This document shows positions 30,106-36,715 of a stretch of 37,075 nt of DNA, one piece after another (positions within the stretch are counted from its first letter, which is position 1; every line of letters starts with the position of its first letter). The position numbers and the translations under genes were made by a program. This DNA is from an uncultured Lachnospiraceae bacterium (lineage in GTDB: Bacteria > Bacillota > Clostridia > Lachnospirales > Lachnospiraceae). The DNA is taken from assembly GCA_947626435.1 (NCBI GenBank), contig CANQSB010000029.1:1-37075 (forward strand), written 5' to 3'. The notes under the pieces were generated by a model. It had not been told where the DNA came from. It saw only the letters and a list, made by a program, of their open reading frames with translations, and searched no databases.

Positions 30106-31263
30106 CTATTGATTTACGGTCACGCCGTTATCAAATGCAGTTTTATCCACTATTGCACTGGCATTGGGTATTGTGACCTCGGTCAGGGGACACCAAGCAA
30201 AAGCACTGGCGCCAATTTCCGTTACGCTTTCAGGGATTGTCACGCTGGTCAGGTTATAGCACCCATTAAAAGCACTGTCTGCTATTTTCGTTACCCCATC
30301 GGGAATTGTTACGCTGGTTAAGCCTTTGCATTGCATGAAAGTCAGAGTCCCTATTTCCGTTATTCCTTCGGAAATCGTTATGCTGGTCAAACTGGCGCAA
30401 CCGTTAAAAGCATTATCCATTTTTGATACGCTACTTGGAATTGTTATGCTGGTTAAGCCGCTGCTCTGAAAAGCACACTCACCTATTTCTATTAAACCTT
30501 CAGGAAGGGTTATGCCAGTTAAATTCGGACAGTGGTAAAAGGCTTCGCCCCCTATTTTCGTTATCCCATCAGGGATTGTTGCATCAGTTAAGCTAATACA
30601 GCTGCAAAAAGCGCTTTCACTTATTTCTGTTACCCCGTTAGGAATTGTTACATCGGTTAAGCCAGTACAGCTGTGAAAAGCGCCCTCACCTAATTCTGTT
30701 AGGCTTTCGGGGAGGGTTATGCTGGTTAAATTCGGACAGTTGAAAAAAGCTTTCTCTCCTATTTTCGTTACTCCTTCGGGAATGGTTATGTCCATTAAAC
30801 TGGTGGATGAAAAAGCCTCGTCACCTATTTCCGTTATGCCTTCTTCCAGTACCACCTGCAAATCTCCTACTTTCCAGATTACATCTTTAGCTCCGCAATT
30901 CTCCAATGCCTCATTATCCAGAACGCCACTGCCTGAAATAGTCAGCACTCCGCTCTCGTATGTATAGGTAAACTCCCCGCTGCCTTTCTCAGTCTTTGTC
31001 TCCTCTACGACTGTGCTTTCTTCTGTCTCCTCAGTCTGTGTCTCCTCGACGGCTGCGCTTTCTTCTGTCTCCCCAGCCTGTGTTTCCTCAGCGGCTGTGC
31101 TTTCTTCCGTGTCGCTGTCAGTGTCCTCCTCCTGCGCTGCCGTCTCAGTCTGCATAGTCTCCGCCGCGTCCTGCGCCGTCTGTGTTTCTTTATTCCCGCA
31201 TGCACCCAAAGCCAGCGCCGACGACATAAGCCAAACCGCTATAAATAATTTCTTTTTCATCAT
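30106..31263 (-). CDS. BspA-type leucine-rich-repeat lipoprotein 1
   Basis: A 385-residue predicted surface lipoprotein. The signal peptide ends in the lipobox LALGAC, with lipidated Cys22. Residues about 30-95 form an acidic Thr/Glu-rich linker of 14-residue repeats (EETQ and EESTVVEET-like). The rest is about ten LRR_5/BspA-like repeats of about 23 residues (pattern LTSITLPESLTELGEGAF). Such proteins are exported and usually bind partners at the cell surface. GGAGG is 6 bases before the first ATG of the ATGATG start. It follows the MBL gene by 64 bases. The last about 50 residues are identical to lipoprotein 2, showing recent duplication or conversion. Confidence 0.85.
   Translation of the reverse strand: MMKKKLFIAVWLMSSALALGACGNKETQTAQDAAETMQTETAAQEEDTDSDTEESTAAEETQAGETEESAAVEETQTEETEESTVVEETKTEKGSGEFTYTYESGVLTISGSGVLDNEALENCGAKDVIWKVGDLQVVLEEGITEIGDEAFSSTSLMDITIPEGVTKIGEKAFFNCPNLTSITLPESLTELGEGAFHSCTGLTDVTIPNGVTEISESAFCSCISLTDATIPDGITKIGGEAFYHCPNLTGITLPEGLIEIGECAFQSSGLTSITIPSSVSKMDNAFNGCASLTSITISEGITEIGTLTFMQCKGLTSVTIPDGVTKIADSAFNGCYNLTSVTIPESVTEIGASAFAWCPLTEVTIPNASAIVDKTAFDNGVTVNQ
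30991..31115. repeat. 42-bp in-frame tandem repeat in LRR lipoprotein 1
   Basis: Three copies (30991-31032, 31033-31074, 31075-31115) of a 42-bp unit coding for a 14-residue Thr/Glu-rich motif between lipobox and LRR domain. Copy-number change would keep the frame and alter the length of the surface stalk. Confidence 0.75.
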
Positions 31264-31327: not shown

Positions 31328-32830
31328 TTATTTATCTTTTATAATGAAATCATTTCCATTGAGGTTTTTGTCATCAGTCCTCAAAACCTTTCTGAATTTA
31401 AGCATATTTTTATCTTCGTATATATCAATGACATTTTTATTCGGATGCCCCCATTTATTATAGCCTACGCATATTACGGCTTTATCCCTGCCGCTTTTGG
31501 CGGCTGCTTTCTGCAGCTCTTTCGGCACTGCGCCGATTTGCTTCAACGATTTACCTGATGCGTGGTGCGGTACTATGATATTTTTGACAGTATTAGGCTT
31601 GGCTGCATTAATCTGATTAATCTGCCAATTTTCATAGCCGCAGTCTCCCGTCAGGAGCGTGTTATTCATCTTCAGCATAAGACCGCTTTCGTTCAAATTT
31701 TTTCCTTTCCCACGACACATTATGTAATCGCCTGAGGTTTGAGAATATCCTGGGTATTTTTCGGATACCAAAAATATTTTCTGTTTTTTGGCGAGAAAAA
31801 CTATCAGCCTGTTTAAAGATGCGTTGCATTTTCCCTGAGCGCACACTGGCGCTATCCATTCCGAGGCGGATTTCCCGTTGAATACGCTCCGTTTTAGGGT
31901 ATATGCTGCCTTGTAATGATCCTGATGCCAGTGCGAAATGATTATCAGATCTGGCGCAAGAATATTCCCCACATAAGCATCATCATAAATGCCTGTAGCG
32001 GCTTTATCGATCTGCCCGCCCGTTGAAAATCTCAGGTTAATATCAATCGGGAAACCTACGTCAAACGCAAAGCATTTGTTGCTGCCGTCTGCCATAGTGT
32101 TGTAACCGCTCACGCAGTTTGCCTGTCCTACGCGGTGTACCATCAAATAGCTTTCAGATACATTTTTAAAGAACTTGTCCATCACATTATTTATTTTGCC
32201 GTCAGCATCCGCTGGGATTGTTATATCATCCAACTTATAGGATATATCAGGATCTGCCTTTTCTATCCTTTGGATATAGACTTCCTTGAACTGAAAGAGA
32301 CTTGCTGCAAATGCCAGTCTTCCTTTTTTGCCATTTGCGCCTTCATTACCGACGTTCTTTGACAAGACGACCTTTTGCCATTCGCAGCCTATTTCCAGGT
32401 CTTCATCTGAGCATAATTCATAGAAATATGGCTTATATAGTATATCCAGTACTGAACGCGCGTCAGATGTTTCCAGATTTTCAAAATACACATTATCAGT
32501 CTCAAGCATCCCTGGCGTAATTGCCATATAACGATAACCGAATTTTTTGCTGCTATTTTCATCATTTTCTTTATTTTCTTCATCTTCTTCAAGTTCTTCA
32601 CTAATATACCGTCTGCAGTATATGGTCTTGCTGCCTTTTTCAAATATAAACGGCTTCAGCATTTCCCTGAATTTGCTGTTTAACAGCCTTTCAGGAAACG
32701 CCGCATTAAATACGGGCGAGCTGATAATCTCATCAAAGCTTTCCTTGTCCCACATATGCTCTTTTAATACTTCCAGTTTAGGATTTTTAAGCATTTCACT
32801 TATCTTATTTATTTCTTCCAATATCTCCAT
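31328..32830 (-). CDS. Metallo-beta-lactamase-fold hydrolase with unknown N-terminal region
   Basis: A 500-residue protein without signal peptide. Residues about 1-230 match nothing I recognise and include an acidic stretch (EELEEDEENKENDENSSKK). The C-terminal half is an MBL fold of the ComEC-like type. It has His300-x-His302-x-Asp304-His305 (SHWHQDH), LTGDCGYE as the next metal-binding segment, and IIVPHHAS. The metal site looks complete, so it is probably an active metal-dependent hydrolase; nuclease, phosphodiesterase or other activity cannot be chosen. GAAGGA precedes the ATG. It lies between two LRR lipoproteins in one operon, and its link to them is unknown. Confidence 0.75.
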   Translation of the reverse strand: MEILEEINKISEMLKNPKLEVLKEHMWDKESFDEIISSPVFNAAFPERLLNSKFREMLKPFIFEKGSKTIYCRRYISEELEEDEENKENDENSSKKFGYRYMAITPGMLETDNVYFENLETSDARSVLDILYKPYFYELCSDEDLEIGCEWQKVVLSKNVGNEGANGKKGRLAFAASLFQFKEVYIQRIEKADPDISYKLDDITIPADADGKINNVMDKFFKNVSESYLMVHRVGQANCVSGYNTMADGSNKCFAFDVGFPIDINLRFSTGGQIDKAATGIYDDAYVGNILAPDLIIISHWHQDHYKAAYTLKRSVFNGKSASEWIAPVCAQGKCNASLNRLIVFLAKKQKIFLVSEKYPGYSQTSGDYIMCRGKGKNLNESGLMLKMNNTLLTGDCGYENWQINQINAAKPNTVKNIIVPHHASGKSLKQIGAVPKELQKAAAKSGRDKAVICVGYNKWGHPNKNVIDIYEDKNMLKFRKVLRTDDKNLNGNDFIIKDK

Positions 32831-32861
32831 AATGTCCTTCTCTCTTAATCAAAATTTACGG

Positions 32862-32880
32862 ATGCCGCATTAGGCGGCAT
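32862..32880 (-). repeat. Hairpin between LRR lipoprotein 2 and the MBL gene
   Basis: ATGCCGC (32862-32868) and GCGGCAT (32874-32880), loop ATTAG. It is an intercistronic hairpin without a strong T-run, identical to the one at 30066-30084. It may limit read-through from lipoprotein 2 into the MBL gene. Confidence 0.6.
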
Positions 32881-32901
32881 CTGCATTGATTGTCTGAAAT
32901 G

Positions 32902-34020
32902 CTATTGATTTACGGTCACGCCGTTATCAAATGCAGTTTTATCCACTATTGCACTGGCATTGGGTATTGTGACCTCGGTCAGGGGACACCAAGCAAAAGC
33001 ACTGGCGCCAATTTCCGTTACGCTTTCAGGAATTGTTACGCTGGTTAAGTTATTACAGTAACCAAAGGCAACGCTACCAATTTTTGTTACCCCCTCGGGG
33101 ATTTCTACGCTTGTTAAAACAGCACATTGTCCAAAAGCGCCATCTCCTATTTCCGTTACCCCTTCAGAAATTGTTATGCTGGTTAAGCCACTTCTAGGAA
33201 AAGCATTTTCCTCTATTTTTGTCACTCCACCAGGAATTGTTATGCTGGTTAAGCCACAATTTTCAAAAGCTCTCTGACCTATTTCTATTAAACTTTCAGG
33301 GAGATTTATGCTCGTCAAATTGTAACACTCAAAAAAAGCACACTCCCCTATTTTTGTTACTCCTTCGGGGATTTCTACGCTTGTTAAATTAGTACATTGT
33401 TGAAAAGCGTAGTTACCTATTTCCGTTACTCCTTTAGGAATTGTGACGCTGGTTAAGCCAGTACAGCCGTCAAAAGCATGATCACCTAATTCTGTTAGGC
33501 TTTCGGGGAGGGGTATGCTGGTCAAGTTCGGACACATGTAAAAGGCGTTCGCGCCTATTTTTGTTACTCCTTTAGGAATTGTTATGCTAATTAAACCACT
33601 TCCTCTAAAAGCGGAGTTACCTATTTCCGTTACTCCTTCTTCCAGTACCACCTGCAAATCTCCTACTTTCATGACTACATCTTTAGCACCGCAAGCCTCC
33701 ATTGCCTCACTATCCAAAACACCCTTGCCTGAAATAGTCAGCACTCCGCTCTCATATGTATAGGTAAACTCCCCGCTGCCTTCCTCAGTCTGTGCCTCCT
33801 CAGCCTGTGTCTCCTCAACGACTGTGCTTTCTTCTGTCTCCCCAGCCTGTGTTTCCTCAGCGGCTGTGCTTTCTTCCGTGTTTTCCTCCCGCACTTTTGT
33901 TTCGGTCTGCCTAGTCTCTCCCGCTTTCTGCGCCGTCTGTGTCTCTTTACTCCCACAGGCGCTTACCGCAAGCGCCGACGACATAAGCAAAGCTGTCATA
34001 AATAATTTCTTTTTCATCAT
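32902..34020 (-). CDS. BspA-type leucine-rich-repeat lipoprotein 2
   Basis: A 372-residue surface lipoprotein. The signal peptide ends in the lipobox LAVSAC (Cys22), followed by a shorter Thr/Glu-rich linker and about ten LRR_5 repeats (pattern LTSITIPGGVTKIEENAF). It is paralogous to lipoprotein 1, with near-identical ends and divergent middle repeats, as if repeats were shuffled. The frame stays open upstream to 34293, but the ATGATG at 34020 has AGGAGG 6 bases before it and the signal peptide begins there. It is the first gene of the LRR-MBL-LRR operon and is controlled by the poly-G spacer promoter at 34069-34100. Confidence 0.87.
   Translation of the reverse strand: MMKKKLFMTALLMSSALAVSACGSKETQTAQKAGETRQTETKVREENTEESTAAEETQAGETEESTVVEETQAEEAQTEEGSGEFTYTYESGVLTISGKGVLDSEAMEACGAKDVVMKVGDLQVVLEEGVTEIGNSAFRGSGLISITIPKGVTKIGANAFYMCPNLTSIPLPESLTELGDHAFDGCTGLTSVTIPKGVTEIGNYAFQQCTNLTSVEIPEGVTKIGECAFFECYNLTSINLPESLIEIGQRAFENCGLTSITIPGGVTKIEENAFPRSGLTSITISEGVTEIGDGAFGQCAVLTSVEIPEGVTKIGSVAFGYCNNLTSVTIPESVTEIGASAFAWCPLTEVTIPNASAIVDKTAFDNGVTVNQ
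33787..33885. repeat. 42-bp in-frame tandem repeat in LRR lipoprotein 2
   Basis: Two full copies (33802-33843, 33844-33885) and a partial one (33787-33801) of the 42-bp unit found three times in lipoprotein 1. The copy number differs between paralogues. Confidence 0.7.
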
Positions 34021-34068
34021 TAAAATCCTCCTATATATTTTTTGTTTATGATTAAACATACATATCAC

Positions 34069-34100
34069 ATTATACCCCCCCCCTCGTACATATTTGTCAA
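34069..34100 (-). promoter_or_regulatory. Promoter with a nine-G tract in its spacer (candidate phase-variable switch)
   Basis: On the minus strand, TTGACA (34095-34100) and TATAAT (34069-34074) are both perfect consensus boxes. They are separated by 20 bases, of which the nine next to the -10 are all G (34075-34083). Loss of three G would give the optimal 17-base spacer. The -10 box is 49 bases upstream of the lipoprotein 2 start. Repeated TGACAAA motifs lie upstream of the -35. Confidence 0.7.
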
Positions 34101-34164
34101 GCATTTTGTCATATTTTGTCAAATACATAAAGTAACCGCAAAATAACCTCCATTCTTTGAACGC

Positions 34165-34200
34165 AAAAAAGCAACCGCCCCTTTGGCGATTGCCTTTTTT
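34165..34200 (-). terminator. Rho-independent terminator after the DUF4132-like gene
   Basis: On the minus strand GGCAATCGCC pairs (with G-U pairs) with GGCGGTTGC, short AAAGG loop, then TTTTTT; a run of A precedes. It isolates the DUF4132-like gene from the lipoprotein operon. Confidence 0.8.
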
Positions 34201-34213
34201 ATATTCTTCCGCC

Positions 34214-36715
34214 TTATCCCGCGTGATGCCGAAAAGCATTTGAAGATTTCCAGCTCTCGTCGTATCCGTTGCTTGACGCTGTGGCATTGGCAAGCTGCAG
34301 CGCTATCTCACTGAAATACCTCGGCGGTATGTCCTTCAGCGGGATTATTTTGTCGCCTTCCGCCTCATCATAGCAGTAACTCCCGCGCTCTATCGTGCCA
34401 GCCTTGTAAAATCTCGCGTCATACACGGTTATCTCCTCGCCGCCACCATAGCCTGAGCCTACAAAACTTCCTGAAAAATGAAGCTCCACGCCAAGCCCCG
34501 TTTCTATGTCCTCTCGGTAAAATGTGTAAAATCCTCCCGCGTCCTGTACCGAGCCTCTGTACCAGCCTGCGCCTGTAAGCCTGCTCATCAGCGAAAGGTC
34601 ATTAATTTTAATTCCGCCAAAGCGCTCTAAGGTCGGCATTTCCTTCTCTGCGTCAGTCAGTCTGTATACTTGTCTGTACAGCTGTGTTATAGGCTGTATT
34701 ATCTCATAGTCCTCCAGCTGCTGCCGCCATTTGGAAAGTGACACGTCTGTCAGTTCTATTGGGTGGACAAGTGATATTGTCTGCGCACACGTGGCAGCTG
34801 CGCCATCTGGCAATATGTACTCCTCCTCATCCTCTGTGTTAAAGCTGCCATCCTCCATATACCTAAAGCTTTTGATAAGCTTGCCCTCCTCATAAACGCC
34901 CCATATCAGCCCTATCGCAAACTGGTGCATTATAGGATTTTTCACAAAAAGCGCTCTCCATGCATCTGCTGTCCATTCGCGTTTTGCCATAAGCGCATAT
35001 TCCATGCGCGCCTTCTGGCTCGACACTGACGCTTTCATCTGCTTTTTCAGCTGTTTAAAGGCATCAATCGCTGCCCTGGCTTTTTCCTCATCATCCTTTT
35101 TGCCGACAGAAGGGAGGTTTTTAAGCTTTTTGCCCGTCTCGTCAAATACCTCCGCTTCAAGGGCAGGAGTGAGCGTTACCTTGAATTTTCTCTCGCCGTA
35201 GTCGAAAATCCGCTCCATATTTTCATCAAACCCAAGATCTGGCACGATTTTGTCCGCAAGCTCCTCGCGCGTGATGCCAAGCTGTTCGGCGGCGTACTCC
35301 ATAGCCTCGCCCGCAGCCGCCTTTACCTGTTTAAACTTGTACTTTCGCGCCATGCCGTCCACTGTCAAAAGCGCGTTTGGGAAAGGATTGAGGGCAAGCG
35401 CCTTTACCGCCTCGGCGGCTATCGCTCCCCTTAAATTCTGCGCCCACTCGCCAATCTGCCGCACAAGCATGTCCACTATCTCACTGCCGCCGTGGATAGA
35501 TGCCGTGTAGAGTACCCAGCGTTTCTTCGTGTCCGCGCCAAGCGAAAGCCATCTGCTGTACAGCTCGTTTACATACGCGGCAAGCTCATCCTCTCTAAGG
35601 CTGTCTGCAAGCAGCGCACCGCTTGCGCTTATGCCGTTTTTGTCCGCTGTCGAATAGCATAGCAGAAACGCCTGCATATATTCCTCGGAAGCGACCGTGC
35701 CGTCATTTTTATGTACCGCGCCAAACGATGTCTGGTATGCCCATTCAAGCGAGCGCTTTCTGCCGCCCTTGTGTAACTGTTTCACAAGCTCGTCAGGTAT
35801 AATTTCATTTTGGCTGCGGACTGTGCTTTTATCCGCAGACTCTCCTGTAGCTGTATTTTCTGAGATTGAGTTTCGTATCAGGGCTGCCAGCTTTGCGCTT
35901 TTTTCTTTTTCAAGCATATCGAACAAAGTTTTTGCACAGTCTATACCGCTACTATGCCATTTTATCAGCACCCGTGCGGCAAGCTCGCGTTCGGCAAGCT
36001 TCTTTGATATGGCAAGCCTCTTTATGTCCTCCGCCCAGTCCTTTCTTTCACACAGCATGTCAAACAGGAGATTTCTCACTATGCCCGAGCCGTCCTGCGC
36101 ATATGAGATGATTTCGCTCTTATTTTCCTCTGATTTCTGTGCCAGCACTGTAAGCGCAAACCAACGCGCCAGTGCGCTTGCGCCCGCAAATGCCTCCAGC
36201 GTCTCCTCGCGCCTTTCGTCCAAATATCTGGTAAAAACCTTCCTTAATGCATCAGCCAATACTTCCTCATCATTTACCTTGTAACCTCTTTCCTCCATTA
36301 TGTCGATTATGTATAACTGGTATTTAAGCATCAGCTCTTCTTTTTCGTAGTCGGCAAACAGTTTTTCGATTTTCTCGGGCGAAAACTGCTGCCAGTTTTC
36401 ATGCTCAATCAAGCATCTATGCACTTCATTGCCCATTTGCATAAGAGTATTGACAACCATACATCTGCGGAAAAATTCCTCGTCATTGTATGTCTTATCA
36501 AATTCAAAAATCCCTGAATCAATGAAATGCCACCACTTTATAGGCATATTGTCAGCAAAGCTGTAAAGCTCGTCAAGCTTTGCAGAACCCATAATGTACT
36601 CTTTGATTGTGTTCTTTTCAGCATCAGCGAGTAAGCTTACATTATTGTTGAGCGAATATCTGCTTATAAGCTTGTCCGCTATTTTTCCCATTTCTTCGGT
36701 TTTTTTGTCACTCAT
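34214..36715 (-). CDS. DUF4132-like protein with HEAT-like repeats, intact copy
   Basis: A protein of about 833 residues, no signal or membrane segments. The first about 550 residues are helical, HEAT/Armadillo-like (for example ALARWFALTVLAQKSEENKS, then KRLAISKKLAERELAARVLI). The C-terminal region, about 600-820, has the features I associate with DUF4132 (GAGWYRGSVQDAGGF, GVELHFSGSFVGSG, PPRYFSEIALQL). DUF4132 is best known at the end of WGR-containing proteins such as MolR/YehI, but no WGR domain is seen here. The start at 36713-36715 has GAGG 6 bases upstream; the frame is open to a TTG at 36733. It has a broken paralogue at 27039-29618. Function unknown. Confidence 0.65.
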   Translation of the reverse strand: MSDKKTEEMGKIADKLISRYSLNNNVSLLADAEKNTIKEYIMGSAKLDELYSFADNMPIKWWHFIDSGIFEFDKTYNDEEFFRRCMVVNTLMQMGNEVHRCLIEHENWQQFSPEKIEKLFADYEKEELMLKYQLYIIDIMEERGYKVNDEEVLADALRKVFTRYLDERREETLEAFAGASALARWFALTVLAQKSEENKSEIISYAQDGSGIVRNLLFDMLCERKDWAEDIKRLAISKKLAERELAARVLIKWHSSGIDCAKTLFDMLEKEKSAKLAALIRNSISENTATGESADKSTVRSQNEIIPDELVKQLHKGGRKRSLEWAYQTSFGAVHKNDGTVASEEYMQAFLLCYSTADKNGISASGALLADSLREDELAAYVNELYSRWLSLGADTKKRWVLYTASIHGGSEIVDMLVRQIGEWAQNLRGAIAAEAVKALALNPFPNALLTVDGMARKYKFKQVKAAAGEAMEYAAEQLGITREELADKIVPDLGFDENMERIFDYGERKFKVTLTPALEAEVFDETGKKLKNLPSVGKKDDEEKARAAIDAFKQLKKQMKASVSSQKARMEYALMAKREWTADAWRALFVKNPIMHQFAIGLIWGVYEEGKLIKSFRYMEDGSFNTEDEEEYILPDGAAATCAQTISLVHPIELTDVSLSKWRQQLEDYEIIQPITQLYRQVYRLTDAEKEMPTLERFGGIKINDLSLMSRLTGAGWYRGSVQDAGGFYTFYREDIETGLGVELHFSGSFVGSGYGGGEEITVYDARFYKAGTIERGSYCYDEAEGDKIIPLKDIPPRYFSEIALQLANATASSNGYDESWKSSNAFRHHAG

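Follow-up and report, generated by a model that had tools for sequence, protein, structure and literature searches.

A poly-G spacer between consensus promoter boxes upstream of a BspA-type LRR lipoprotein gene: a candidate slipped-strand switch in gut Bacillota

A promoter at 34069..34100 on the minus strand of the window (the whole stretch of DNA that was analysed, 37,075 nt) carries nine consecutive G directly against its −10 box and precedes LRR1, the gene of a BspA-type LRR protein. It is probably a sigma-A-type promoter in which a slippage-prone G-tract determines the length of the spacer, and the layout points to slipped-strand phase variation of LRR1. During replication the tract would gain or lose one G, which would alter the spacing of the −10 and −35 boxes by a single base; this would change the engagement of both boxes by RNA polymerase, and output of the BspA-LRR surface lipoprotein would then differ among clone-mates in a random, reversible way. 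The window promoter would in that case be one of a recurring set standing before secreted-protein genes in its genus and in many gut bacteria. Much of the switch promoter proposed in the initial annotation is supported by the recurrence of the layout, its use of G rather than C, the placement of the tract at the −10 box, the secreted-type genes behind it and the length differences between copies, while the operon and the 17-base optimum that formed part of the same proposal are not.

The slipped-strand mechanism itself is known. On our best reading, what is new is a widespread class of such promoters in gut Bacillota that is tied to genes of secreted type, those of BspA-LRR proteins first among them; among the openly available papers listed by a literature search, none describes poly-G spacer promoters in Lachnospiraceae or other Clostridia. 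The wider proposition, that these promoters form a widespread and overlooked class of switches in the gut Bacillota as well as in certain other bacteria, acting mainly on secreted or surface genes (BspA-LRR foremost) and lying 1–3 bases off a 17-base spacer, we regard as evenly balanced.

Anatomy and recurrence of the promoter

Direct reading of the minus strand from 34100 to 34069 confirmed the annotated arrangement of an exact TTGACA −35 box (34095..34100), a 20-base spacer (AATATGTACGAGGGGGGGGG; 34075..34094) and an exact TATAAT −10 box (34069..34074), the G9 tract proposed as the slippage site (34075..34083) adjoining the latter. The distance from TATAAT to the ATG of LRR1 is 48 bases. A single A breaks the G run after its first G (TACGAGGGGGGGGG), and an older, longer tract may therefore have been interrupted here. 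The window holds only this one TTGACA-N14..22-TATAAT pair, with 0.13 expected, and the pair alone is only mildly unusual because 13 of 100 shuffles of the window contain at least one. The G9 tract is the window's sole run of seven or more G or C, and the combination of boxes and tract is far from chance. A second TTGACA, at 34117-34122 and 42 bases upstream of the −10 box, lies within TTGACAAAATATGACAAAATGCTTGACA, a stretch that looks as if it were a partial repeat of the −35 region.

The same architecture recurs in related genomes. Fourteen tract promoters were found in 6 of 38 genomes of the genus, and an order-level sample of 392 genomes, which includes this genome's own three promoters, gave 19 matches in 15 genomes; the read-backwards control returned 0 in both cases, as in every search for tract-bearing boxes, and C8 in place of G8 in the same box pattern matched in none of the 392 order genomes. 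Across the 20 positive genomes, 27 spacer tracts were found, of which 25 run unbroken up to the −10 box, one is interrupted and one lies elsewhere in the spacer, the 27 matches having been classed by eye and the mid-spacer control pattern also catching adjacent tracts of more than 7 and missing prefixes of more than 9. A lone promoter at G181:C127:9073-9104 has a spacer of 20 with a G10 tract near its −35 box rather than its −10 box.

A scan of named genomes with the pattern TTGACA-N3..12-G8-TATAAT, which demands exact boxes and a spacer of at most 20, returned at least 119 stretches, with 3-5 expected by chance over the whole collection, and at least 126 promoters within them; the viral collection held one stretch with this pattern, and a locus-specific pattern with tract length left free had 0 matches in viral contigs. 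The matches listed are not a random sample, many coming from rabbit-gut MAGs and a few from environmental genomes. Assigned by hand from record titles, the 126 promoters among them divide into 45 from Clostridia outside Lachnospiraceae, 9 from Lachnospiraceae and Clostridiaceae, 45 from Bacilli and relatives, and 27 from elsewhere (Saccharibacteria, Spirochaetes, Streptobacillus, Helicobacter and a few environmental lineages).

Poly-G spacer promoters are linked to secreted-type genes. A gene starts at most 250 bases downstream of 113 of the 126 promoters listed, the other 13 being left out, and a crude hydrophobicity rule assigns a signal- or TM-like start to 87 of these 113 genes among the matches listed; for the remaining ORFs of those loci the figure is 117 of 467. 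In loci L057-L204 the corresponding counts are 2/19 for genes behind perfect promoters that lack a tract and 15/53 for genes behind promoters matching 11 of 12 positions. BspA LRR_5 is the commonest Pfam family behind the promoters, with 10 of 113 genes (best 25 of 69 families); the control set, in which 113 of 142 secreted-type ORFs were scanned, has a single LRR_5 protein among the 113 (best 25 of 132 families; p 0.01). Within the genus, where N-termini were read by eye, nine of the 14 promoters precede secreted-type proteins and five precede proteins with no visible signal peptide; behind the promoters, Pfam confirms LysM domains in a single protein from each of three genomes, G051, G052 and G003, and the other G051 copies resemble the LysM protein by eye.

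Spacer length, tract length and known systems

Seventeen bases had been annotated as the favoured spacer length, a view at odds with its rarity in the class. The spacers of the 126 promoters listed, limited to at most 20 bases by the pattern, measure 14 in 2 cases, 15 in 14, 16 in 22, 17 in 7, 18 in 32, 19 in 37 and 20 in 12, whereas tract-free exact box pairs peak at 17. That length is seen in 15 of 39 such pairs from the fetched loci (Fisher p 2e-6 for the rarity of 17 in the poly-G class) and in 24 of 64 from this genome (p 6e-8). In the genus, 17 is found in 0 of 14 promoters and 19 in seven of 14, and the order sample has 17 in 2 of 19. The 17-base spacer accounts for 3/45 promoters in Clostridia, 3/45 in Bacilli, 0/9 in Lachnospiraceae and Clostridiaceae and 1/27 elsewhere. 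The Clostridia have two modes, at 15-16 and 18-19, and the Bacilli mainly one at 18-19, so taxon plays a part in spacer length. Given the rarity of 17-base spacers, a simple model of slippage to 17 is unproven, and two readings remain, namely that most assembled genomes have caught the promoter away from its optimum or that the optimum is longer when the spacer is poly-G.

The absent 17-base state is a clear puzzle for promoter physics. If the proposed switch class is real, either most cells would be low by design, with a slip of one or two bases raising the gene, or the poly-G helix would shift the optimum to about 19, and either alternative would be a new rule. With the searchable signature, ordinary metagenomes would reveal the switch states of surface proteins, and commensal surface variation towards immunity, phages and mucus would become testable.

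Tract length was compared between homologous copies, defined by BLAST across the site at E 1e-12 or better, which gave 37 pairs among 144 promoters; the pairs share members (48 promoters), so the pair counts are descriptive rather than independent. The tracts differ in 15 of 36 pure-tract pairs, twelve by one base and three by 2, 3 and 4 bases, and are equal in 21; the remaining pair of the 37 holds an interrupted member. Where prefix length is equal, 8 of 23 pairs differ in the tract. One promoter shared by G003 and G005 has G9 in one genome and G10 in the other. For the window promoter we infer slippage within the population, an effect on expression and reversibility. Among paralogous promoters of G051 (L237/L238), the copy with an interrupted tract leads into a frame with a premature stop and the copy with a pure G12 into an intact 351-aa frame.

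Published accounts offer several partial parallels. Neisseria, named in the initial annotation as a precedent for switching by a spacer homopolymer, does provide one in the porA promoter of Neisseria meningitidis, where a change from 11G to 10G brings a 2-fold reduction and 9G variants stain negative (PMC3639595). As in porA, a homopolymer lies between the −35 and −10 boxes of the gene's own promoter at LRR1, and the target is a surface or secreted protein, here a BspA LRR_5 protein with a lipoprotein-type signal; in porA, tract length changes the amount of a major surface protein. Unlike the case here, the porA effect was shown experimentally, and it concerns a single Gram-negative outer-membrane porin and not a promoter class (PMC3639595). 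The other close precedent is PPA1880 of Propionibacterium acnes, a secreted protein of a Gram-positive commensal with a G-tract in its putative promoter spacer, although the host is an Actinobacterium: the tract is 11, 13 or 15 G long and the spacer correspondingly 18, 20 or 23, and in this comparison of three strains and one gene the protein was secreted by the 18-base strain only, not by those with 20 or 23, the authors also proposing a frameshift reading (PMC3224659). In the gut commensal Bifidobacterium breve, slippage of G-tracts controls a surface structure, the pilus, and tracts of differing length coexist in the population and change in mice, but the tract is intragenic and acts by frameshift (PMC9187656). 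BspA-like surface proteins are under repeat-length phase variation in Candidatus Mycoplasma girerdii, but there the repeats are mostly dinucleotide and act by frameshift, not as a spacer tract (PMC5476646). For Clostridioides difficile, a review describes phase variation via DNA inversion (PMC11868660).

The strongest competing explanation is that the architecture is fixed, the poly-G spacer setting promoter strength through helix geometry or binding a regulator, with the differences between species reflecting slow drift and no switching in the population. The equal tracts in 21 of 36 pairs would fit such an arrangement, as would the grouping of the 126 listed spacers around 18-20 and 15-16 rather than 17. 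The same is true of a second promoter of this genome, C45:4341, which is conserved with its gene at G017 C87:9427, G051 C10:15817 and G052 C51:1787 and has G10 in all four species. Tract variation in P. acnes was, moreover, judged to follow clades and to represent slow change rather than active switching (PMC4746626). Against fixity, the 15 pairs that differ do so mostly by a single G; 26 of the 32 tracts of this genome other than the window's sit within an ORF on their own strand that is 100 aa or longer (hand count), where spacer geometry cannot be the reason for them; and the B. breve tracts show that poly-G does switch in vivo in a commensal (PMC9187656). We therefore regard a fixed architecture as unlikely, though deserving of serious attention, and retain slipped-strand variation of LRR1 as the preferred reading.

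Genes around the promoter

LRR1 (32902..34020, minus strand) lies directly behind the promoter and encodes a 372-aa BspA-type LRR protein (LRR_5, PF13306, E 1.2e-119), its ATG at 34020 being preceded at 6 bases by the ribosome binding site AGGAGG (34027..34032, minus strand; score 6 of 6). The N-terminus has a lipoprotein-type signal (..AVSACGS) with a lipobox judged by eye, in agreement with the LRR lipoprotein gene annotated at this position. Its paralogue LRR2 (30106..31263, minus strand; 74% identical, LRR_5 E 1.8e-88) is the second gene after LRR1, and with 394 bits for LRR1 and 293 bits for LRR2 against a cut-off of 27.7 both belong to the BspA-like LRR family (PF13306). DNA homology between LRR2 and the start of LRR1 begins only downstream of the promoter, so LRR2 has no copy of it. 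Among the matches listed in the genus, of whose 38 genomes 37 have one at E 1e-20, LRR1 has no close orthologue, and its best listed match outside its own genome is 53% over part of the protein. The interrupted-tract promoter G051:C4:101211 was considered as an orthologue of the window promoter and dropped, a different secreted-type protein standing behind it.

The gene between the two LRR genes (31328..32830, minus strand; 500 aa) matched 0 families in Pfam and NCBIfam at E 0.001. It contains an SHWHQDH motif, spotted by eye, and HxHxDH is a motif that we take to be a sign of the metallo-beta-lactamase fold; the MBL-fold identity given to this gene earlier thus has the motif in its favour and no matching curated model. 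A GC-rich hairpin with a weak U-tail (32861..32881, minus strand; −16.5 kcal/mol, z −4.91), possibly a weak terminator, separates LRR1 from this gene. Because it follows LRR1, only LRR1 is securely behind the promoter; the three-gene operon suggested at the outset is unproven, and membership of the transcript is uncertain for both the middle gene and LRR2. On the other side, a hairpin with a U-run lies behind the upstream DUF4132 gene (34165..34199, minus strand); it folds at −21 kcal/mol (z −5.25), which none of 200 shuffles equalled. This terminator-like structure would insulate the promoter from the DUF4132 gene. It was missed by a rule-based terminator scan because the scan wants a T-run after the stem, and here the T-run pairs.

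These features bear on a second alternative, in which the G9 would be coding and slippage would cause a frameshift. A mechanical ORF list does give a 463-aa frame with a TTG start (32902-34293) that runs through the tract into LRR1, and most other G-tracts of the genome lie in ORFs. Such an extension would, however, have to cross the strong hairpin at 34165..34199, while AGGAGG, the ATG at 34020 and the lipoprotein signal mark the real start, homology with LRR2 begins downstream of the tract, and exact promoter boxes flank the G9 on both sides. A coding role for this tract is accordingly very improbable.

G-tracts elsewhere in the genome

The genome contains 33 distinct tracts of eight or more G (a hand count from 93 overlapping G8 matches), comprising 3 G8, 16 G9, 7 G10, 3 G11, 2 G12, 1 G14 and 1 G15, so that G9 tracts outnumber G8 tracts, the reverse of chance decay. 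Ten of the 26 proteins encoded by tract-bearing ORFs were scanned; they include three acyltransferases, a family-2 glycosyltransferase, a UbiA prenyltransferase, a methyltransferase and one DUF6492 protein, and three of the ten had no family match. Loss of mismatch repair was considered as a cause of the tracts and rejected, since MutL is present and, judged on MutL alone, there is no mutator background.

Three of the 33 tracts lie between exact boxes and touch TATAAT: that of the window, C7:39054 (G10, spacer 16) and C45:4341 (G10, spacer 19). With independent bases, the expectation for 33 tracts is about 0.012 in contact with TATAAT and 4e-5 flanked by both boxes. C7:39054 precedes a 725-aa BspA-LRR protein with a signal peptide, so that two of the three tract promoters of this genome stand before BspA-LRR genes. 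C45:4341 precedes, by 237 bases and with a second TATAAT in between, a 397-aa protein that matches no known family in Pfam or NCBIfam and has no visible signal peptide. The protein behind the four G10 promoters of the C45:4341 set is of a 395-aa class beginning MALNIWNSINN.., with its start 122-237 bases on.

Poly-G artefacts occur in two-colour sequencing, and one of the 33 tracts, the G15, sits at a contig end; the window tract, by contrast, lies inside its contig with ordinary sequence on both sides, and the same arrangement turns up in unrelated assemblies, always with G and nearly always at the −10 box, so that an assembly or sequencing artefact is even harder to credit than a coding tract. 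Chance placement of a G-run can be put aside as negligible: the box pair alone does arise in 13 of 100 shuffles, but three of 33 tracts have both boxes against 4e-5 expected, and at least 119 stretches were found in named genomes against 3-5, with controls at 0.

Two intragenic clusters of G-tracts were also observed, four tracts in 12 kb at C1:151500-163500 (L057) and seven in 17.5 kb at C17:33000-50500 (L070). Nearly all are covered by ORFs, several of them with acyltransferase, glycosyltransferase or prenyltransferase domains, and both clusters are candidate intragenic contingency loci of the surface-glycan type. Within the second, a G9 tract at C17:40039-40047 (L070:7040) stands 11 bases upstream of a 376-aa gene's ATG, where a ribosome-binding site would be expected and slippage could possibly control translation.
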